64,000 bases of DNA, from contig NZ_QFXK01000010.1 in assembly GCF_003261635.1 (NCBI RefSeq), forward strand, positions 248,001 through 312,000, in the 5' to 3' direction. The notes under the pieces are model-generated. The model saw nothing but the letters and a program-made list of their open reading frames with translations, made no database searches and was not told the DNA's origin. How positions within the stretch are numbered: position 1 is the stretch's first letter; each line of letters starts with the position of its first letter. Source of the DNA: Kribbella monticola. Its GTDB lineage: Bacteria > Actinomycetota > Actinomycetes > Propionibacteriales > Kribbellaceae. The position numbers and the translations under genes were made by a program. Of this stretch, positions 1 through 10,704 are shown piece after piece.

Positions 1-33
1 ACAACGAGGAGCCGTGGTGCGACGCTGACCGCT

Positions 34-1119
34 ATGGCCCGACTTCGTACATGCATCGATCGAGTAGTGGCCGAGAACGCCTTGTTGCGGGTCGCCGAGC
101 AGTCGGTCGCCGAGCGCCCGGCTAACGCCCCGGAGGAGTACGACGCCAGTGGCCGGCGCCGTGACGCGCGCCGGATGGCGATCGAAACCGGTCGGATGTG
201 GAGCGCCGGACGCGTCCTGCGGCTCGGCTTCCTCGGCGGCGATCCGGCGGTCTGGGCGAAGGTGGCGACGATCGCCCAGGAGTGGACCCGGCACGCGCGG
301 ATCACCTTCGAGGTGGTTGACGATCCGCACGTGGCCGAAGTACGCATCGCATTCGATCCCGGTGCGGCATGGTCGTTGATCGGCACGGAGGCGCTCGGCG
401 TACGGGCCGACGCGGCCACGATGAATCTCGGCCGGCTGACCAGCAAGAGTCCTGACGATCTGTACAGGCGGGTCGTCCTGCACGAATTCGGTCATACGCT
501 CGGGTGCGTGCACGAGCATTCGAGCCCGAAGGCAGGCATACCCTGGGACCTGCGCGCGGTCTACCAGTATTACGCGCGCCCGCCGAACACCTGGACGCCG
601 GAGCAGGTCGACCTCAACGTGATCAAGAAGTACTCCGTTAGCCAGACCCGGTCCACGGAGTTCGATCCGGCCTCGATCATGATCTATCCAATCCCGGGAG
701 CGCTGACCGGCGGCAAGTACAGCGTCGACTGGAACGTGGCGCTGTCCGACCTCGACCGCAGTTTTATCGGTCAGCACTATCCCCTCACGGATCCGGCGGC
801 GCTTTTGCTGGAGTGCGATGGTGAACCCGTCGAAGCGATCATCGATCGGCCTGGCGAAGTCGGACTCTTCGTGTTCGAGGTTCATGAGCCAGGGGACTAC
901 GTCCTCGGTACGTCGGGCTTTACTGACCTCGGGTTGCGGGTATACGGGCCCGGCGGCGCGGTCGCTGCCCTCGCCGACGTCGAGGACGGCGGTCCTGGCG
1001 GCAACTCGCGCGTCGAGCTGCCCCTGATGCCGGGGAGTTACCGGGTCGAGGTACGGCACCGGCGGCCGAACGGTACCGGTGCCTATGCACTCGCCTTCCA
1101 GCATGTCAGCGGTCGCTAG
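34..1119 (+). CDS. Astacin-like (M12) zinc metalloprotease
   Basis: The 361-residue protein carries the extended zinc motif HEFGHTLGCVHEH: His150, Glu151, His154 and His160 fit the HExxHxxGxxHE signature of astacin-type metzincins. A Met-turn (SIMIYPIP, Met216) follows about 56 residues later, as the fold requires. The N-terminal 70 residues show no hydrophobic signal peptide, so it may act in the cytoplasm or leave by another route. Residues from about 265 to 361 look like a beta-rich PPC-type accessory domain. No good ribosome binding site precedes the ATG used here, so the start is uncertain; an internal GTG at 67 is an alternative. Its stop overlaps by 4 nt the stop of the convergent gene at 1116-1895. 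Protease activity is well supported by motif; the substrate is unknown. Confidence 0.85.
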   Translation: MARLRTCIDRVVAENALLRVAEQSVAERPANAPEEYDASGRRRDARRMAIETGRMWSAGRVLRLGFLGGDPAVWAKVATIAQEWTRHARITFEVVDDPHVAEVRIAFDPGAAWSLIGTEALGVRADAATMNLGRLTSKSPDDLYRRVVLHEFGHTLGCVHEHSSPKAGIPWDLRAVYQYYARPPNTWTPEQVDLNVIKKYSVSQTRSTEFDPASIMIYPIPGALTGGKYSVDWNVALSDLDRSFIGQHYPLTDPAALLLECDGEPVEAIIDRPGEVGLFVFEVHEPGDYVLGTSGFTDLGLRVYGPGGAVAALADVEDGGPGGNSRVELPLMPGSYRVEVRHRRPNGTGAYALAFQHVSGR

Positions 1120-1895
1120 TCCGTCGCGTCCTCGATGAACGAGCCTTCCGGGCGTTCCGCGCCCCGTCGCGGGACGACTCCAGGCGCGAACGCCTCCGCC
1201 GCGTCGTGGATGCCGACGACCTTGCCGCCGCCGAACCAACCCTTCTTGACCCGGACGGCCCGGAACAGCGGTGTCAGGCCTTCGTCGCCGACTAGTTGGG
1301 TGTGCATGCCGTGCGAGGACACCACCGTCATGTCCGCCGACAGGTCACCAAGATCGACCGGCCCGACGGCCGCGTCGGCCGATGCCTCTAGTTCGACCTT
1401 GGCATAGCCGCCCTGGGAGACGAGCACGGTCGCCCGCTCGGTCGTGACGAGTTCGACGATCACGACCCAGTCCGGATCCCACAGGTAGCGGTCCCAGAGA
1501 TCCCAGATCGCGTCTTCGAGGGCGATGATGTCTTCGATCCGCGATCCAACGACGCCGCGGGCTGAGAACACGACGCCCGCGTCCCGGCCAAAGGAGACGG
1601 CCGCGCCGGCCTTGGCCTTCGGGAGCGAAGGGACCTGGGTCGAGACGCTCCCGGACAGCTTGGTGTCGACCTGGATCTCGTCGGACGACTTGAACTGCAT
1701 CGACTTTGTCGCGGCGGGATCCTTGGCCTTCTTGAACTCAACACCGAGGGTCTTGATCGACGACTTCGGGACGAAAGTCTTGCCCTGCAATTCGCCGATC
1801 AGTCCGAGCTTCAGGCCCGTCCCCGGCAGCCAGGTGGCCAGGTAGCCGGTCTGTTTCAGCATGGTGGACGTATACAAGTCCTCGATAGTTGACAT
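1116..1895 (-). CDS. Conserved-looking protein of unknown function (259 aa)
   Basis: I do not recognise this family with certainty. The ATG at 1895 is preceded by an AGGAGA ribosome site at good spacing and is preferred over the GTG one codon upstream. The protein has no cysteine, no signal peptide and no long hydrophobic helix. It alternates short beta-type segments (for example DPDWVVIVELVTTERATVLV) with Gly/Ser/Lys stretches and ends in a charged tail of about 30 residues (RRGAERPEGSFIEDATD). Size, beta-rich pattern, detachable tail and a protease neighbour resemble bacterial gasdermins, but the N-terminal cysteine common in that family is missing and the genes are convergent rather than in one operon. 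Treat the pore-former idea as a hypothesis only. Confidence 0.7.
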   Translation of the reverse strand: MSTIEDLYTSTMLKQTGYLATWLPGTGLKLGLIGELQGKTFVPKSSIKTLGVEFKKAKDPAATKSMQFKSSDEIQVDTKLSGSVSTQVPSLPKAKAGAAVSFGRDAGVVFSARGVVGSRIEDIIALEDAIWDLWDRYLWDPDWVVIVELVTTERATVLVSQGGYAKVELEASADAAVGPVDLGDLSADMTVVSSHGMHTQLVGDEGLTPLFRAVRVKKGWFGGGKVVGIHDAAEAFAPGVVPRRGAERPEGSFIEDATD

Positions 1896-2326
1896 CACTG
1901 TTCTCCTCGCCGTTGACGTGCACCGCTAGGGAATGGCCGAAACCCGATCCTGCTGGAAGAATTCCGGCGAAGTTCGAGGAGAAAGCGGAAACCATTTGCG
2001 GTCGCGGCAGCCGGCGATCGCTTCGCGAGCCGTTGCCGTTTCAGGCCATGGTGCATCGCGACCGCGTGGCACACCCCCATGCCTGCGGTCAACCTCGCCG
2101 GCTTTCTGCCAGGCAGATCTATGCGATCTGTCAGCACTTCCCCACCCCCACGGCGAGTGTATGTCTGCATCACGACCGTGTCGACATCCGTGACCGGAAG
2201 GAGACAGTGGATTTCCGGGCCGTCGCCGAGTGCAAATGTTGGAAAGTGTTTCGGCTGGGCATTCCCTGCCGGCTATTCAGCAAATCCGGAGCGGCGGACC
2301 GCAGTGAGATAAGGGGTGGTGCGAAG
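1896..2326. other. Stretch without a supported gene
   Basis: About 430 bases lie between the unknown protein and the sigma-like gene. Open frames cross it in several phases, but their translations are Arg/Ser/Pro-rich and lack any family pattern. It probably holds the promoter of the minus-strand gene and debris. Nothing else is seen. Confidence 0.5.
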
Positions 2327-4200: not shown

Positions 4201-5424
4201 ATGACCAACAGAGAGCGGCGACGGCGAAACAGAGGTATCTCGCTGAGCTTCATCCTGGCGCCTGTACTCCTCCTCGCAACCCTCGTCGGTTCAGATCCGG
4301 CGACGGCGATCACGACCTTGACCGGACCTGTCCAGGGCATCGGGGGCAAGTGCCTCGACAACAGTGGTGGACGTCTGGTCAACGGCAATCCCATCGTGCT
4401 CTGGAGTTGCAACGGTCAGTCCAGTCAGCAATGGAGCTTGCCGGGAGACGGCACGATCCGGGCTGGGAACTACTGCCTGGCGGTCAAAGGCGCGGGCACC
4501 ACCGCGACCACACCCGTCTGGCTTTATGCCTGCGATCGTGGACCGGCCCAACTCTGGACCATCAGATCAAACGGAACCGTCGTCAATCCGAACTCCGGGC
4601 TGTGTCTGGCTTCCAAAAACAGCGGCACTGCGGACGGCAATCCCATTTGGGTCTACACCTGCGACGCCGGCCCTGCCCAGTTGTGGAGTGTGCCAAATCC
4701 CAGCGACTCCTCAGGCCAATCCATGCCGATCGGAGACCTGCCGGGCTGGCGTCAGGTCTTCACCGACAATTTCGCCACCACCGTGCCCCTAGGTCAGTTC
4801 CCTGCCGCGGTTTCCGCCAAGTGGGGCGCCTATCCGGACGGATGGAAGGACACCAGCAAGAACGGCACCTACTACCCATCCAAGGTCATCACTCAGTCCG
4901 GCGGACTGATGAACCTGTACCTCCACACCGAGAACGGCATCCACATGGTCTCGGCGCCGGTGCCGAAGATCCAGGGCGCGACCGGTTCAGGTGGCGGTCT
5001 TCTGTACGGCCGGTACGCCGTCAGGTTCCGCGCTGATCCTGTCGCCGGATACAAGACAGCCTGGCTGCTCTGGCCGGACAGCGAGCAATGGGCCGACGGC
5101 GAGATCGACTTCCCGGAAGGCGATCTCACCGGCCACGTCGAGGCCTTCATGCATCACAGAGGGAGCCCGCTGGACCAGGACAAGTACCCGACCCAGGCCG
5201 CGTACGGTACCTGGCACACCGCGATCACCGAATGGACACCCCAAGCGGTGAGGTTCATCCTCGACGGCGCGGTCATCGGTACCTCTACCAACCCGGCGTT
5301 CATTCCGAACACGCACATGCACTGGGTGCTTCAAACCGAGACCCGTACGGCGGGCGGACCGCCGGCCGACACCGACGCGGGCAACGTACAAATCGACTGG
5401 GTGGCCGCCTACGTGCCGAAGTAG
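4201..5424 (+). CDS. Secreted GH16 glycoside hydrolase with ricin-B lectin domain
   Basis: The 407-residue protein has a Sec-type signal peptide (residues 1-36, basic start, ILAPVLLLATLVG, cleavage near ATA). Residues about 38-162 form a ricin-type beta-trefoil with three QxW repeats (QQWSL, QLWTI, QLWSV) and paired cysteines. Residues about 175-407 are a GH16 jelly roll with the catalytic EIDFPE motif (Glu301 nucleophile, Asp303, Glu306 acid/base). GH16 enzymes cut beta-1,3 or beta-1,4 glucans and galactans in plant, fungal or algal polysaccharides; the exact substrate cannot be read from the motif. An AAGG sequence precedes the ATG. It probably serves extracellular polysaccharide breakdown. 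Confidence 0.92.
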   Translation: MTNRERRRRNRGISLSFILAPVLLLATLVGSDPATAITTLTGPVQGIGGKCLDNSGGRLVNGNPIVLWSCNGQSSQQWSLPGDGTIRAGNYCLAVKGAGTTATTPVWLYACDRGPAQLWTIRSNGTVVNPNSGLCLASKNSGTADGNPIWVYTCDAGPAQLWSVPNPSDSSGQSMPIGDLPGWRQVFTDNFATTVPLGQFPAAVSAKWGAYPDGWKDTSKNGTYYPSKVITQSGGLMNLYLHTENGIHMVSAPVPKIQGATGSGGGLLYGRYAVRFRADPVAGYKTAWLLWPDSEQWADGEIDFPEGDLTGHVEAFMHHRGSPLDQDKYPTQAAYGTWHTAITEWTPQAVRFILDGAVIGTSTNPAFIPNTHMHWVLQTETRTAGGPPADTDAGNVQIDWVAAYVPK

Positions 5425-8779: not shown

Positions 8780-8938
8780 GTGTCGGCCGATGATCCGGAG
8801 CTGCGGGTGCGGGTCCCGGAAGTGTTGCCCGTGCTCTATCCACAGGCCGCTCGCGTGCTGGGCAGGATTGTTGTAGAAGTGGCACGGAAGCGGGCCGGTG
8901 AGGGTCCCGGCTGCCAGTCGGAGGGGCGAGCGTCTTGA
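8780..8938 (+). CDS. Small ORF coupled to the serine recombinase (52 aa)
   Basis: GTG 8780 follows a GGAG at 8769-8772. The product has a Pro-Val-rich start and one amphipathic helix (AARVLGRIVVEVARKR). Its TGA overlaps the TTG start of the recombinase (TTGA), so the two are probably translated together. Small ORFs of this kind sit before large serine recombinases in actinomycete elements. A role as a directionality factor or translational leader is speculation. A longer frame from ATG 8744 is possible. Confidence 0.5.
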   Translation: MSADDPELRVRVPEVLPVLYPQAARVLGRIVVEVARKRAGEGPGCQSEGRAS

Positions 8939-10704
8939 GTGCCGAGCAGCAGGATCAGTGGGCGGCTCTTGATGAGTTGCTTGGGATGGAGGCATTGGCC
9001 GCTGCACCCGCGGAAGGTCGTGGGATCGGCAGGCTGGCGTTTTACGGGCGGTGCTCGACGGAGGACAACCAGGATCCGAGGACTTCAAAGGCGTGGCAGA
9101 TGGGGGAGGCTCAACGATTTGTTGAGCCGTTGGGTGGGGAGATCGTTGCTGAGTACTTCGATATTGGGCAGTCGCGGTCGTTGCCGTGGGAGCGTCGGGA
9201 GCAGGCGAGCCTGATTCTGGGGGCGCTGAAGGATCCGAACCGCGGCTGGGACGGGCTGGTGGTGGGGGAGGCGACGCGGTGTTGGTTTGGGAATCAGTTC
9301 AGTTTGACGTGGCCGAAGTTCGATCGGTTTGGGGCGTCATTGTGGATCCCGAGCCTTGGTGGTCGGTTCGACCCTGAGAACACGGTGCATGACATGGCGA
9401 TGACGATCACCGGCGGGTTGTCGAAGAGTGAGCGGCAGCATGTGCAGCGGCGGGTGAGGGCGGCGATGGCTGCGCAGGTGCTGATTGATGGGAAGCACCA
9501 GGGTGGGCGGGCGCCGTACGGGTATGTGGTGGTCGACGCGGGGCCCCATCCGAATCCGCGGAAGGCTCAGGAGGGGTACCGGCTGCGGGTCCTTGCGGTT
9601 GATGAGGTCGCGGCGCCGGTGGTGCAGAGGATCTTTGGGATGTATCTCGAGGGTCTGGGGATCAAGGCGATTGCGGCGACGCTCAATGTCGAGGGGGTGT
9701 TGTGTCCGTCGGCGCATACGCCTGAGCAGAACCGGCATCGGAGTGGCGATGGTTGGCAGTTCACGACGGTGAAGACGATCCTCGAGAATCCGCGCTACAC
9801 CGGGTACGCGATCTATGGGCGGTCTCACAAGGTTGAGGAGCTGCTTGATCCGGATGACGTTGCGGCCGGGCATGTGGTGCGGTTTCGGCGGTCGGCGCAG
9901 TCGAAGGTTGTTCGATCTCGGGAGCCTGCGCATCCGGCGATCGTGTCGGTTGAGGACTTCACGAGTGTTCAGTTGGAGATGCGGGCTCGGCGGGGACCGG
10001 GGCGGGTTCCGCGGGCGTCGCAGGAGCGCACGAAGGTCGGTCCGAAGGCTGACTATCTGTTTCGCGGCGCGATCCGATGCGCTTGCTGTGGGCGGAAGAT
10101 GGAAGGGGCTCGGCGTAAGCACGCGATCTTCTATCGGTGTGCGGCCCGGACGTTGGTACCGGGATCGAGGAGTGCCATGGACCATCCGCCGACGGTGTAC
10201 CTGCGTGAAGACCGGCTCGCTGATGCGGTCAACGGCTGGGTCTCCCGGCTGTTCAGTCCGGACAATCTTGATGAAACCGTTGCTCTCATGGCCGGTGCTC
10301 AAGAAGGCCCAGATACGACTGAGGAGGCTGAGACCAGGTTGCGGGAGCGGATCGAGGCCGCGGAGTCTGCGATGGCGCGGCTTCAGCGCGCTATGGAGGC
10401 CGGCTGGGATCCGAGCGAGCTGACCGCTCAGTTCAACGCGGCCGTGATGGAGAAGCGGGCGGCCGAGGCTGGGCTGAATGCGCTGGAGCCGGCGCAGCGG
10501 CTGAGTGCCGACGACTACCGCGAAGCCGTGTTGGGGCTGGGCGATATGGCGGAGGCTCTCAGGGAGGCGACTCGTGACCGTCTAGTGGAGCTTTATCAAG
10601 GTCTACGAGTCGCGGTCGTTTACGACCACCTGATACGGGCCGCCGACGTGTCCATCAGCCCTGTCCCGCGTGTGCATAAGGTTGGTGTCCGAGGGGGGAC
10701 TTGA
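8935..10704 (+). CDS. Large serine recombinase (site-specific integrase)
   Basis: The 589-residue protein has the resolvase/invertase catalytic domain at the N-terminus: FYGRCSTEDNQD places the nucleophile at Ser41. The Recombinase domain follows (GGRAPYGYVVVD, then WQFTTVKTILENPRYTGYAIYGR), then a zinc-ribbon region (RCACCGRKMEG ... YRCAA) and a coiled-coil stretch near residues 460-520. These are the parts of a large serine integrase, which joins attP and attB through a covalent Ser-DNA link. It starts at TTG 8935, overlapping the stop of the small ORF before it. The last six to seven residues are encoded by the 3' end of the tRNA-Leu gene on the other strand, which suggests that the frame was completed at an integration junction. 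Confidence 0.93.
   Translation: MSAEQQDQWAALDELLGMEALAAAPAEGRGIGRLAFYGRCSTEDNQDPRTSKAWQMGEAQRFVEPLGGEIVAEYFDIGQSRSLPWERREQASLILGALKDPNRGWDGLVVGEATRCWFGNQFSLTWPKFDRFGASLWIPSLGGRFDPENTVHDMAMTITGGLSKSERQHVQRRVRAAMAAQVLIDGKHQGGRAPYGYVVVDAGPHPNPRKAQEGYRLRVLAVDEVAAPVVQRIFGMYLEGLGIKAIAATLNVEGVLCPSAHTPEQNRHRSGDGWQFTTVKTILENPRYTGYAIYGRSHKVEELLDPDDVAAGHVVRFRRSAQSKVVRSREPAHPAIVSVEDFTSVQLEMRARRGPGRVPRASQERTKVGPKADYLFRGAIRCACCGRKMEGARRKHAIFYRCAARTLVPGSRSAMDHPPTVYLREDRLADAVNGWVSRLFSPDNLDETVALMAGAQEGPDTTEEAETRLRERIEAAESAMARLQRAMEAGWDPSELTAQFNAAVMEKRAAEAGLNALEPAQRLSADDYREAVLGLGDMAEALREATRDRLVELYQGLRVAVVYDHLIRAADVSISPVPRVHKVGVRGGT

Follow-up and report, generated by a model that had tools for sequence, protein, structure and literature searches.

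The protein encoded opposite a putative astacin-like protease gene in Kribbella monticola (referred to as the partner in the following) is very probably a divergent bacterial gasdermin (bGSDM) within a protease-triggered suicide or defence module. Gasdermins perforate membranes and thereby carry out one type of cellular suicide. Our analysis revealed a gasdermin-like sequence and predicted fold, a disordered linker followed by a terminal strand, and protease neighbours throughout the family. The initial annotation had considered a gasdermin-like partner, and this idea gained support from a profile search against the PDB, from hhalign, from two AlphaFold models compared by Foldseek and VIA-align, and from protease-like neighbours at 23 of 24 loci. 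The window, i.e. the whole stretch of 64,000 nucleotides that was analysed, and the adjoining region contain the following features:

34..1119, plus strand: open reading frame (ORF) of the metzincin (astacin/myroilysin-like) protease, 361 aa from ATG
1116..1895, minus strand: ORF of the gasdermin-fold partner, 259 aa from ATG, 260 from an adjacent GTG
1903..1908, minus strand: Shine-Dalgarno-like GAGGAG, 5' of the gasdermin start
G000:C54:245746-248004, minus strand: CHAT-AAA ORF, beyond the left window edge; its longest reading touches window positions 1..4
G000:C54:239216-245941 (L004 1216-7941), minus strand: 2,241-residue reading frame beside CHAT-AAA, with an AAA_16 match below the cut-off

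As had been described before, the protease and partner genes converge with a 4-nt stop overlap; both ORFs were confirmed, and their TAG stop codons share the palindrome CTAG at 1116-1119. Both genes look real, because the partner is a member of a family (24 alignment rows) and the protease matches myroilysin with an E-value of 3.7e-48. Leftwards, the order at the Kribbella locus is gasdermin (minus), metzincin (plus), CHAT-AAA (minus) and the 2,241-residue reading frame (minus). The CHAT-AAA gene is situated just outside the window and was, thus, invisible to the initial annotation. Its product matches Pfam CHAT with 77 bits (cut-off 24) and AAA_16 with 26.6 bits, the latter under the cut-off of 32.6. 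In the alignment of a profile search built on 13 of the CHAT neighbours (see below), its row displays YIAHGG and SACLTG, the His and Cys of which presumably form the CHAT catalytic dyad. A large serine recombinase (Recombinase, Resolvase and Zn ribbon domains) is encoded at window positions 8935-10704, separated from the gasdermin by about 7 kb, and the module may thus be a mobile island; no tRNA was found in the 20 kb of L004. By eye, an ORF at window positions 4201-5424 resembles a secreted ricin-type lectin with a glycoside hydrolase.

As a single sequence, the partner had no match among the Pfam, NCBIfam and PADLOC models or the PDB sequences, and a 3-row profile gave only chance matches in the PDB, with no gasdermin among them. 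An 8-row profile retrieved the gasdermin 7n50 with an E-value of 9.1e-4, and a 24-row profile placed 7n50 first with an E-value of 1.3e-4 over profile positions 20-173, followed by the next match at 1.5. Accordingly, the gasdermin of Bradyrhizobium tropiciagri (7n50) is the best sequence match of the family profile. Aligned to the matched 7n50 segment by hhalign, the family reached an E-value of 3.4e-5 (for one comparison) and a probability of 72. The underlying alignment, A3, comprises 24 full-length rows including the window protein, to which the 23 relatives are 20-30% identical. A truncated homologue (L028/L047) was excluded from A3 and from all counts of 24; about 45 residues of it match (L047 6564-6983), and it is probably a decayed copy.

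Models of known families performed poorly on these proteins. Pfam gave an informative match for 0/24 members, and the PADLOC bGSDM model PDLC02986 recognized none of the 20 partner places in 17 genomes, with 0-4 candidates scored per genome. Applied to the 24 proteins, the same model produced a single weak match (E 0.0031) and left the window protein unmatched. We take this failure as a detection limit and not as a defining feature of the clade. Matches to Pfam NDK (2/24 members, E 0.031) and PADLOC DrmC (1/24 members, E 0.031) were judged to be noise.

Relatives of the partner are thinly spread. Within the order of its own genome, the partner occurs in 3/391 genomes, namely its own and two from other families, and a search of the class added two further relatives among 394 genomes. 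The order of genome G590, where the main genus includes Streptomyces, holds 17 places in 14/391 genomes, G590 and one truncated copy included. Relatives are also present on 4 of 72,556 plasmid records (Gemmatirosa, Embleya, Streptomyces avidinii and Mesorhizobium), and the G1065 locus is identical to one of Streptomyces wuyuanensis. A search of the phylum with A3 returned only the own genome among 396, and of two contig-collection scans the first gave no relative and the second nothing beyond the genome of the query itself; in a phage collection, the window protein had no relative at E 1. In the large genome searches, no more than 6 candidates were scored per genome, and G174 is absent from the class-search result; due to this candidate limit the prevalence numbers are lower bounds. 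In the genomes sampled here, this divergent gasdermin clade is mostly actinobacterial.

Structural modeling of the partner by AlphaFold with 20 alignment rows yielded a beta-rich model with a pLDDT of 78.7 and a pTM of 0.74, in which the predicted pore-forming core extends as follows:

1242..1895, minus strand: predicted pore-forming core, residues 1-218 (AlphaFold elements H4-16 to E197-216)

By blocks of 10 residues, the pLDDT of the core is 81-94, except for residues 81-90 (52), 91-100 (70) and 171-190 (56 and 64). The initial annotation had also left room for an unrelated uncharacterised family, and had named a predicted fold unlike that of gasdermins or any pore-former as a refutation of its idea; the predicted fold did not refute it. 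When the predicted structure was searched with Foldseek, ranks 1-16 were all occupied by gasdermins of bacterial, Trichoplax, fungal (RCD-1) and mammalian origin at E-values of 2.8e-5 to 0.041, the first non-gasdermin fold following at 0.24. VIA-align gave a Z of 11.7 for the Vitiosangium oligomers 9a84 (rmsd 3.6 over 156 residues) and 8sl0, and of 8.6-8.7 for 7n50, 7n51 and 7n52; the best of these alignments span about 160 of the 259 residues. The model of a second member, L013 (pLDDT 77.7), likewise retrieved gasdermins at all of Foldseek ranks 1-14 and reached a VIA-align Z of 11.0 for 8sl0, but only 5.8 for 7n50. The Vitiosangium sp. gasdermin (9a84, 8sl0, 7n51) is of similar chain length, and its pore forms are the best structural matches of both proteins (Z 11.7 for the partner, 10.8-11.0 for L013), while identity of 9a84 and 8sl0 to the models is 12-16% in the VIA rows. 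TM-scores to gasdermins are low (0.26-0.45 for ranks 1-16 of the partner, 0.28-0.51 for ranks 1-14 of L013), with a large full-chain rmsd. As the TM-scores are modest, the gasdermin claim rests on the ranking, the sequence profile and the context together. Based on these models, the partner is predicted to adopt the fold of a gasdermin pore-forming domain.

The lack of an N-terminal cysteine, which the initial annotation had correctly noted and had held against a gasdermin, extends to the whole window protein, which contains no cysteine at all. Across the family, only one of 24 members (L014, at position 9) has a cysteine within its first 12 residues. In this respect, the window protein differs from the Vitiosangium gasdermin and from that of B. 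tropiciagri, which is palmitoylated on C3 (PMC9079055). According to the excerpted text of PMC9612521, most but not all bGSDMs possess an N-terminal cysteine for palmitoylation, by which account it is a common and not a defining feature.

The size of 259 aa, the beta-rich pattern and the charged tail noted for the partner were all confirmed, the beta-rich pattern by the AlphaFold model. The tail (residues 219-259) is of mixed charge, with 4 K/R and 7 D/E, and is divided into two parts:

1143..1241, minus strand: disordered linker, residues 219-251, the expected place of an activating cut (pLDDT 46-54 over residues 221-250)
1119..1142, minus strand: C-terminal peptide SFIEDATD, residues 252-259, a candidate auto-inhibitory element (strand at 254-257, pLDDT of the last block 79)

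Similar hydrophobic-acidic ends following variable linkers are found in several relatives, e.g. VDYEDFS, VSWDEF and VDDEYV. In the L013 model, the terminal peptide is predicted with less certainty: the tail forms a short helix (249-253) and its final residues have a pLDDT below 50. Published bGSDMs are described, in the excerpted text of PMC9612521, as having an inhibitory peptide of about 20 residues and as being cleaved behind a Leu or Arg that is situated about 20 residues before the end. As a guess, the window protein might be cut at Arg243/Arg244, which would free 15 or 16 residues.

The convergent gene encodes a protein with the following sequence features:

481..513, plus strand: HEFGHTLGCVH, of the HExxHxxGxxH type (residues 150-160), which we take to be the zinc-binding motif of the protease
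673..687, plus strand: SIMIY (residues 214-218), presumably the metzincin Met-turn
865..1056, plus strand: weak similarity to PPC at the C-terminal end of the protease (residues 278-341; Pfam PPC E 0.11, 13.8 bits, cut-off 25.9)

Over residues 45-251, the protease matches the PDB entries 5gwd, 5czw and 5zjk of myroilysin, a bacterial M12A metzincin, with E-values of 3.7e-48 to 9.7e-48, whereas the score against Pfam Astacin (PF01400) is 17.9 bits and, thus, under the curated cut-off of 22.5. By its sequence, the protein is best described as an astacin/myroilysin-like metzincin which falls short of the Pfam Astacin cut-off. It shares the protease domain with myroilysin but differs from it by the absence of a hydrophobic N-terminal signal and by about 110 residues past the match. 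The protease is probably cytoplasmic and devoid of a signal peptide, in agreement with the initial annotation: the highest 18-residue mean hydropathy starting within the first 28 residues is 0.65, and the assignment relies on hydropathy and inspection of the sequence instead of a trained predictor. The exact start of the protein is uncertain because the frame stays open upstream. A function as 'beta-glucuronidase AbsR1', suggested by an NCBIfam match (133.5 bits, cut-off 650, E 8.6e-39, residues 81-352), was rejected because this match spans the zinc motif and is weaker than that to myroilysin; the NCBIfam AbsR1 family may itself be metzincin-like.

The initial annotation had proposed that conservation of the gene pair be examined in other genomes. 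A protease beside the gasdermin is indeed recurrent, but not the astacin-like one, which adjoins the gasdermin only at the Kribbella locus: neither a metzincin homologue (phmmer E 1) nor an HExxHxxGxxH motif was found at any of 24 other loci (23 full-length relatives and the truncated one), and the homologue is absent from the other 37 genomes of the genus (present in 1/38, the own genome). A conserved system of astacin and partner was, therefore, rejected. Rare adjacency of the two genes, which the initial annotation had named as a refutation, thus applies to the astacin-like protease only. The recurrent neighbour is CHAT, which is located within 3.5 kb of the partner at 17/24 loci and at a distance of 1,448 bp in the own genome. 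In total, 23/24 loci have a protease-like neighbour, 19 by profile (17 CHAT, 1 S8, 1 C14) and 4 by an HExxH motif only. Thirteen of the neighbours served to build the CHAT profile, and these 13 match by construction; Pfam CHAT independently supports 17/17 CHAT loci, of which L032, L041 and L044 have this support only through the whole-genome search. CHAT was searched for in 17 genomes, with 1-12 matches each; 15/20 partner places in them have a CHAT within 3.5 kb, compared to 0.09 places expected from random placement. A formal probability is meaningless here due to the shared ancestry of the loci; the low identity, however, argues for selection. The CHAT matches at G766 and G1031 have one in-frame TGA each and overlap the gasdermin.

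The remaining neighbours are diverse. An S8 protease adjoins L005, and on the Mesorhizobium plasmid a C14 caspase that carries a fused FGE-sulfatase-like domain is encoded near the gasdermin relative (L048 5391-7049), with a CHAT 4.6 kb away. ORFs with an HExxH motif, identified by the motif only, adjoin L006, L036, L037 and L039. That of L006 matched Pfam M48 with an E-value of 0.11 in one of two scans and is unlisted in the other; those of L036, L037 and L039 had no Pfam match and form one HEAAHH family (e.g. L039 8842-10095). By eye, an ORF of this family also starts at L014 16620, where it comes after CHAT and a NACHT-like ORF. At L010, no protease-like neighbour was found. The ORF upstream of this Gemmatirosa gasdermin relative (L010 5208-7970) has no Pfam match and resembles a TIR-type sensor by eye. 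Both L014 and L043 have long ORFs after CHAT with weak NACHT/AAA matches below the cut-off, and such AAA/NACHT-like sequences near CHAT suggest an arrangement that would suit a shared NLR-like sensor component.

Based on the combined data, a mode of action may be proposed for the module in which the gasdermin would be restrained by the short peptide at its own C-terminus until a neighbouring sensor-protease, most likely CHAT-AAA and possibly also the metzincin, fires. The linker would then be cut within about residues 219-251 and the end peptide freed, upon which the core could oligomerise and form a pore in the membrane of its own cell. Death or growth arrest of this cell would follow, probably as a means of halting an invader, e.g. 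a phage. The steps of cleavage and pore formation are inferred by analogy with bacterial gasdermins (PMC9079055; excerpt of PMC10989679). The Runella gasdermin (7n52), to which the partner model matches with a Foldseek E-value of 4.3e-5, is activated by loss of a short C-terminal piece (PMC9079055). Its protease neighbour is caspase-like, while those of the Kribbella protein are CHAT-AAA and a metzincin, and cleavage is predicted in the latter case. In the excerpted texts of PMC10989679 and PMC12881547, fungal gasdermins, i.e. HET-Q1/HET-Q2 and the CHAT-controlled ones, are encoded beside an S8 or CHAT protease gene and lose about 5 kDa from the C-terminus; these systems are fungal and act in allorecognition, whereas the Kribbella module is bacterial.

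The activating protease deserves further consideration. It may tentatively be speculated that the gasdermin is gated by metalloproteases, the metzincin here and the HExxH-motif protein in four relatives, which would replace the CHAT-AAA sensor or act in series with it, resulting in an AND- or OR-gated two-protease pyroptosis module. We consider it rather unlikely that the metzincin is the main activator and that CHAT-AAA serves another effector. The metzincin gene is the closest one, overlapping by 4 nt, and its product has no hydrophobic N-terminus; both genes went undetected in genus-mates (metzincin in 1/38 genus genomes, partner in 3/391 order genomes), and HExxH-motif ORFs reside beside four other members. 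However, no metzincin was found in the stretch analysed around any other member, CHAT is the neighbour that recurs, and convergent genes have no common promoter. A similar weighing applies to the pore activity itself. The sequence is very divergent, the N-terminal cysteine is absent and the C-terminal tails are variable, as might be expected if the gasdermin fold had lost pore activity and instead regulated CHAT proteases or served as their scaffold; this is very improbable given that the predicted long strands of both models resemble pore hairpins and that several members end in a hydrophobic-acidic peptide. Least credible of all is a wider MACPF/CDC pore-former relative, such as a CDC-like protein, in place of a gasdermin. 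CDC and CDCL chains do reach VIA Z values of 4.4 to 6.2, the best CDC-like chain (6.2; 5.2 for L013) thereby overlapping the weakest gasdermin chains (8gtn 6.0, 8et1 5.0, 8et2 4.6), but the best gasdermins attain 11.7 and Foldseek ranks 1-16, and below E 1 the 24-row profile matches only a gasdermin.

The preferred reading, a divergent gasdermin with CHAT-AAA as the most likely activator, has precedents. Peptidase U49, which is named below, is a metallopeptidase. A figure legend in the excerpted text of PMC9612521 lists CHAT, C14, FGE-annotated lectin and Peptidase U49 genes around bGSDMs, and a TPR-CHAT protease is said in the excerpt of PMC9729208 to activate a bacterial gasdermin. CHAT and C14/FGE neighbours of bacterial gasdermins are, thus, already published and not new. 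In contrast to the Kribbella locus, the bGSDM operons in the excerpted text of PMC9612521 include no metzincin among the neighbours named. Novelty may lie in the clade, which lacks the N-terminal cysteine in 23/24 members, is missed by the PADLOC model and Pfam, occurs in actinobacteria and has, at this locus, a metzincin neighbour. Among the literature matches listed, an actinobacterial or metzincin-gated gasdermin appears in no title or abstract start; the primary bGSDM papers could include members of the clade.

The gene-family models tried overlook this clade (PADLOC bGSDM 0/20 places, Pfam 0/24 informative). Filamentous actinobacteria have long been discussed with respect to programmed cell death, and they thus have a candidate executioner with a protease adjoining it. 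The variety of the neighbours (CHAT, S8, C14, the HExxH motif and the metzincin) offers a comparison of one pore-former gated by unrelated proteases.
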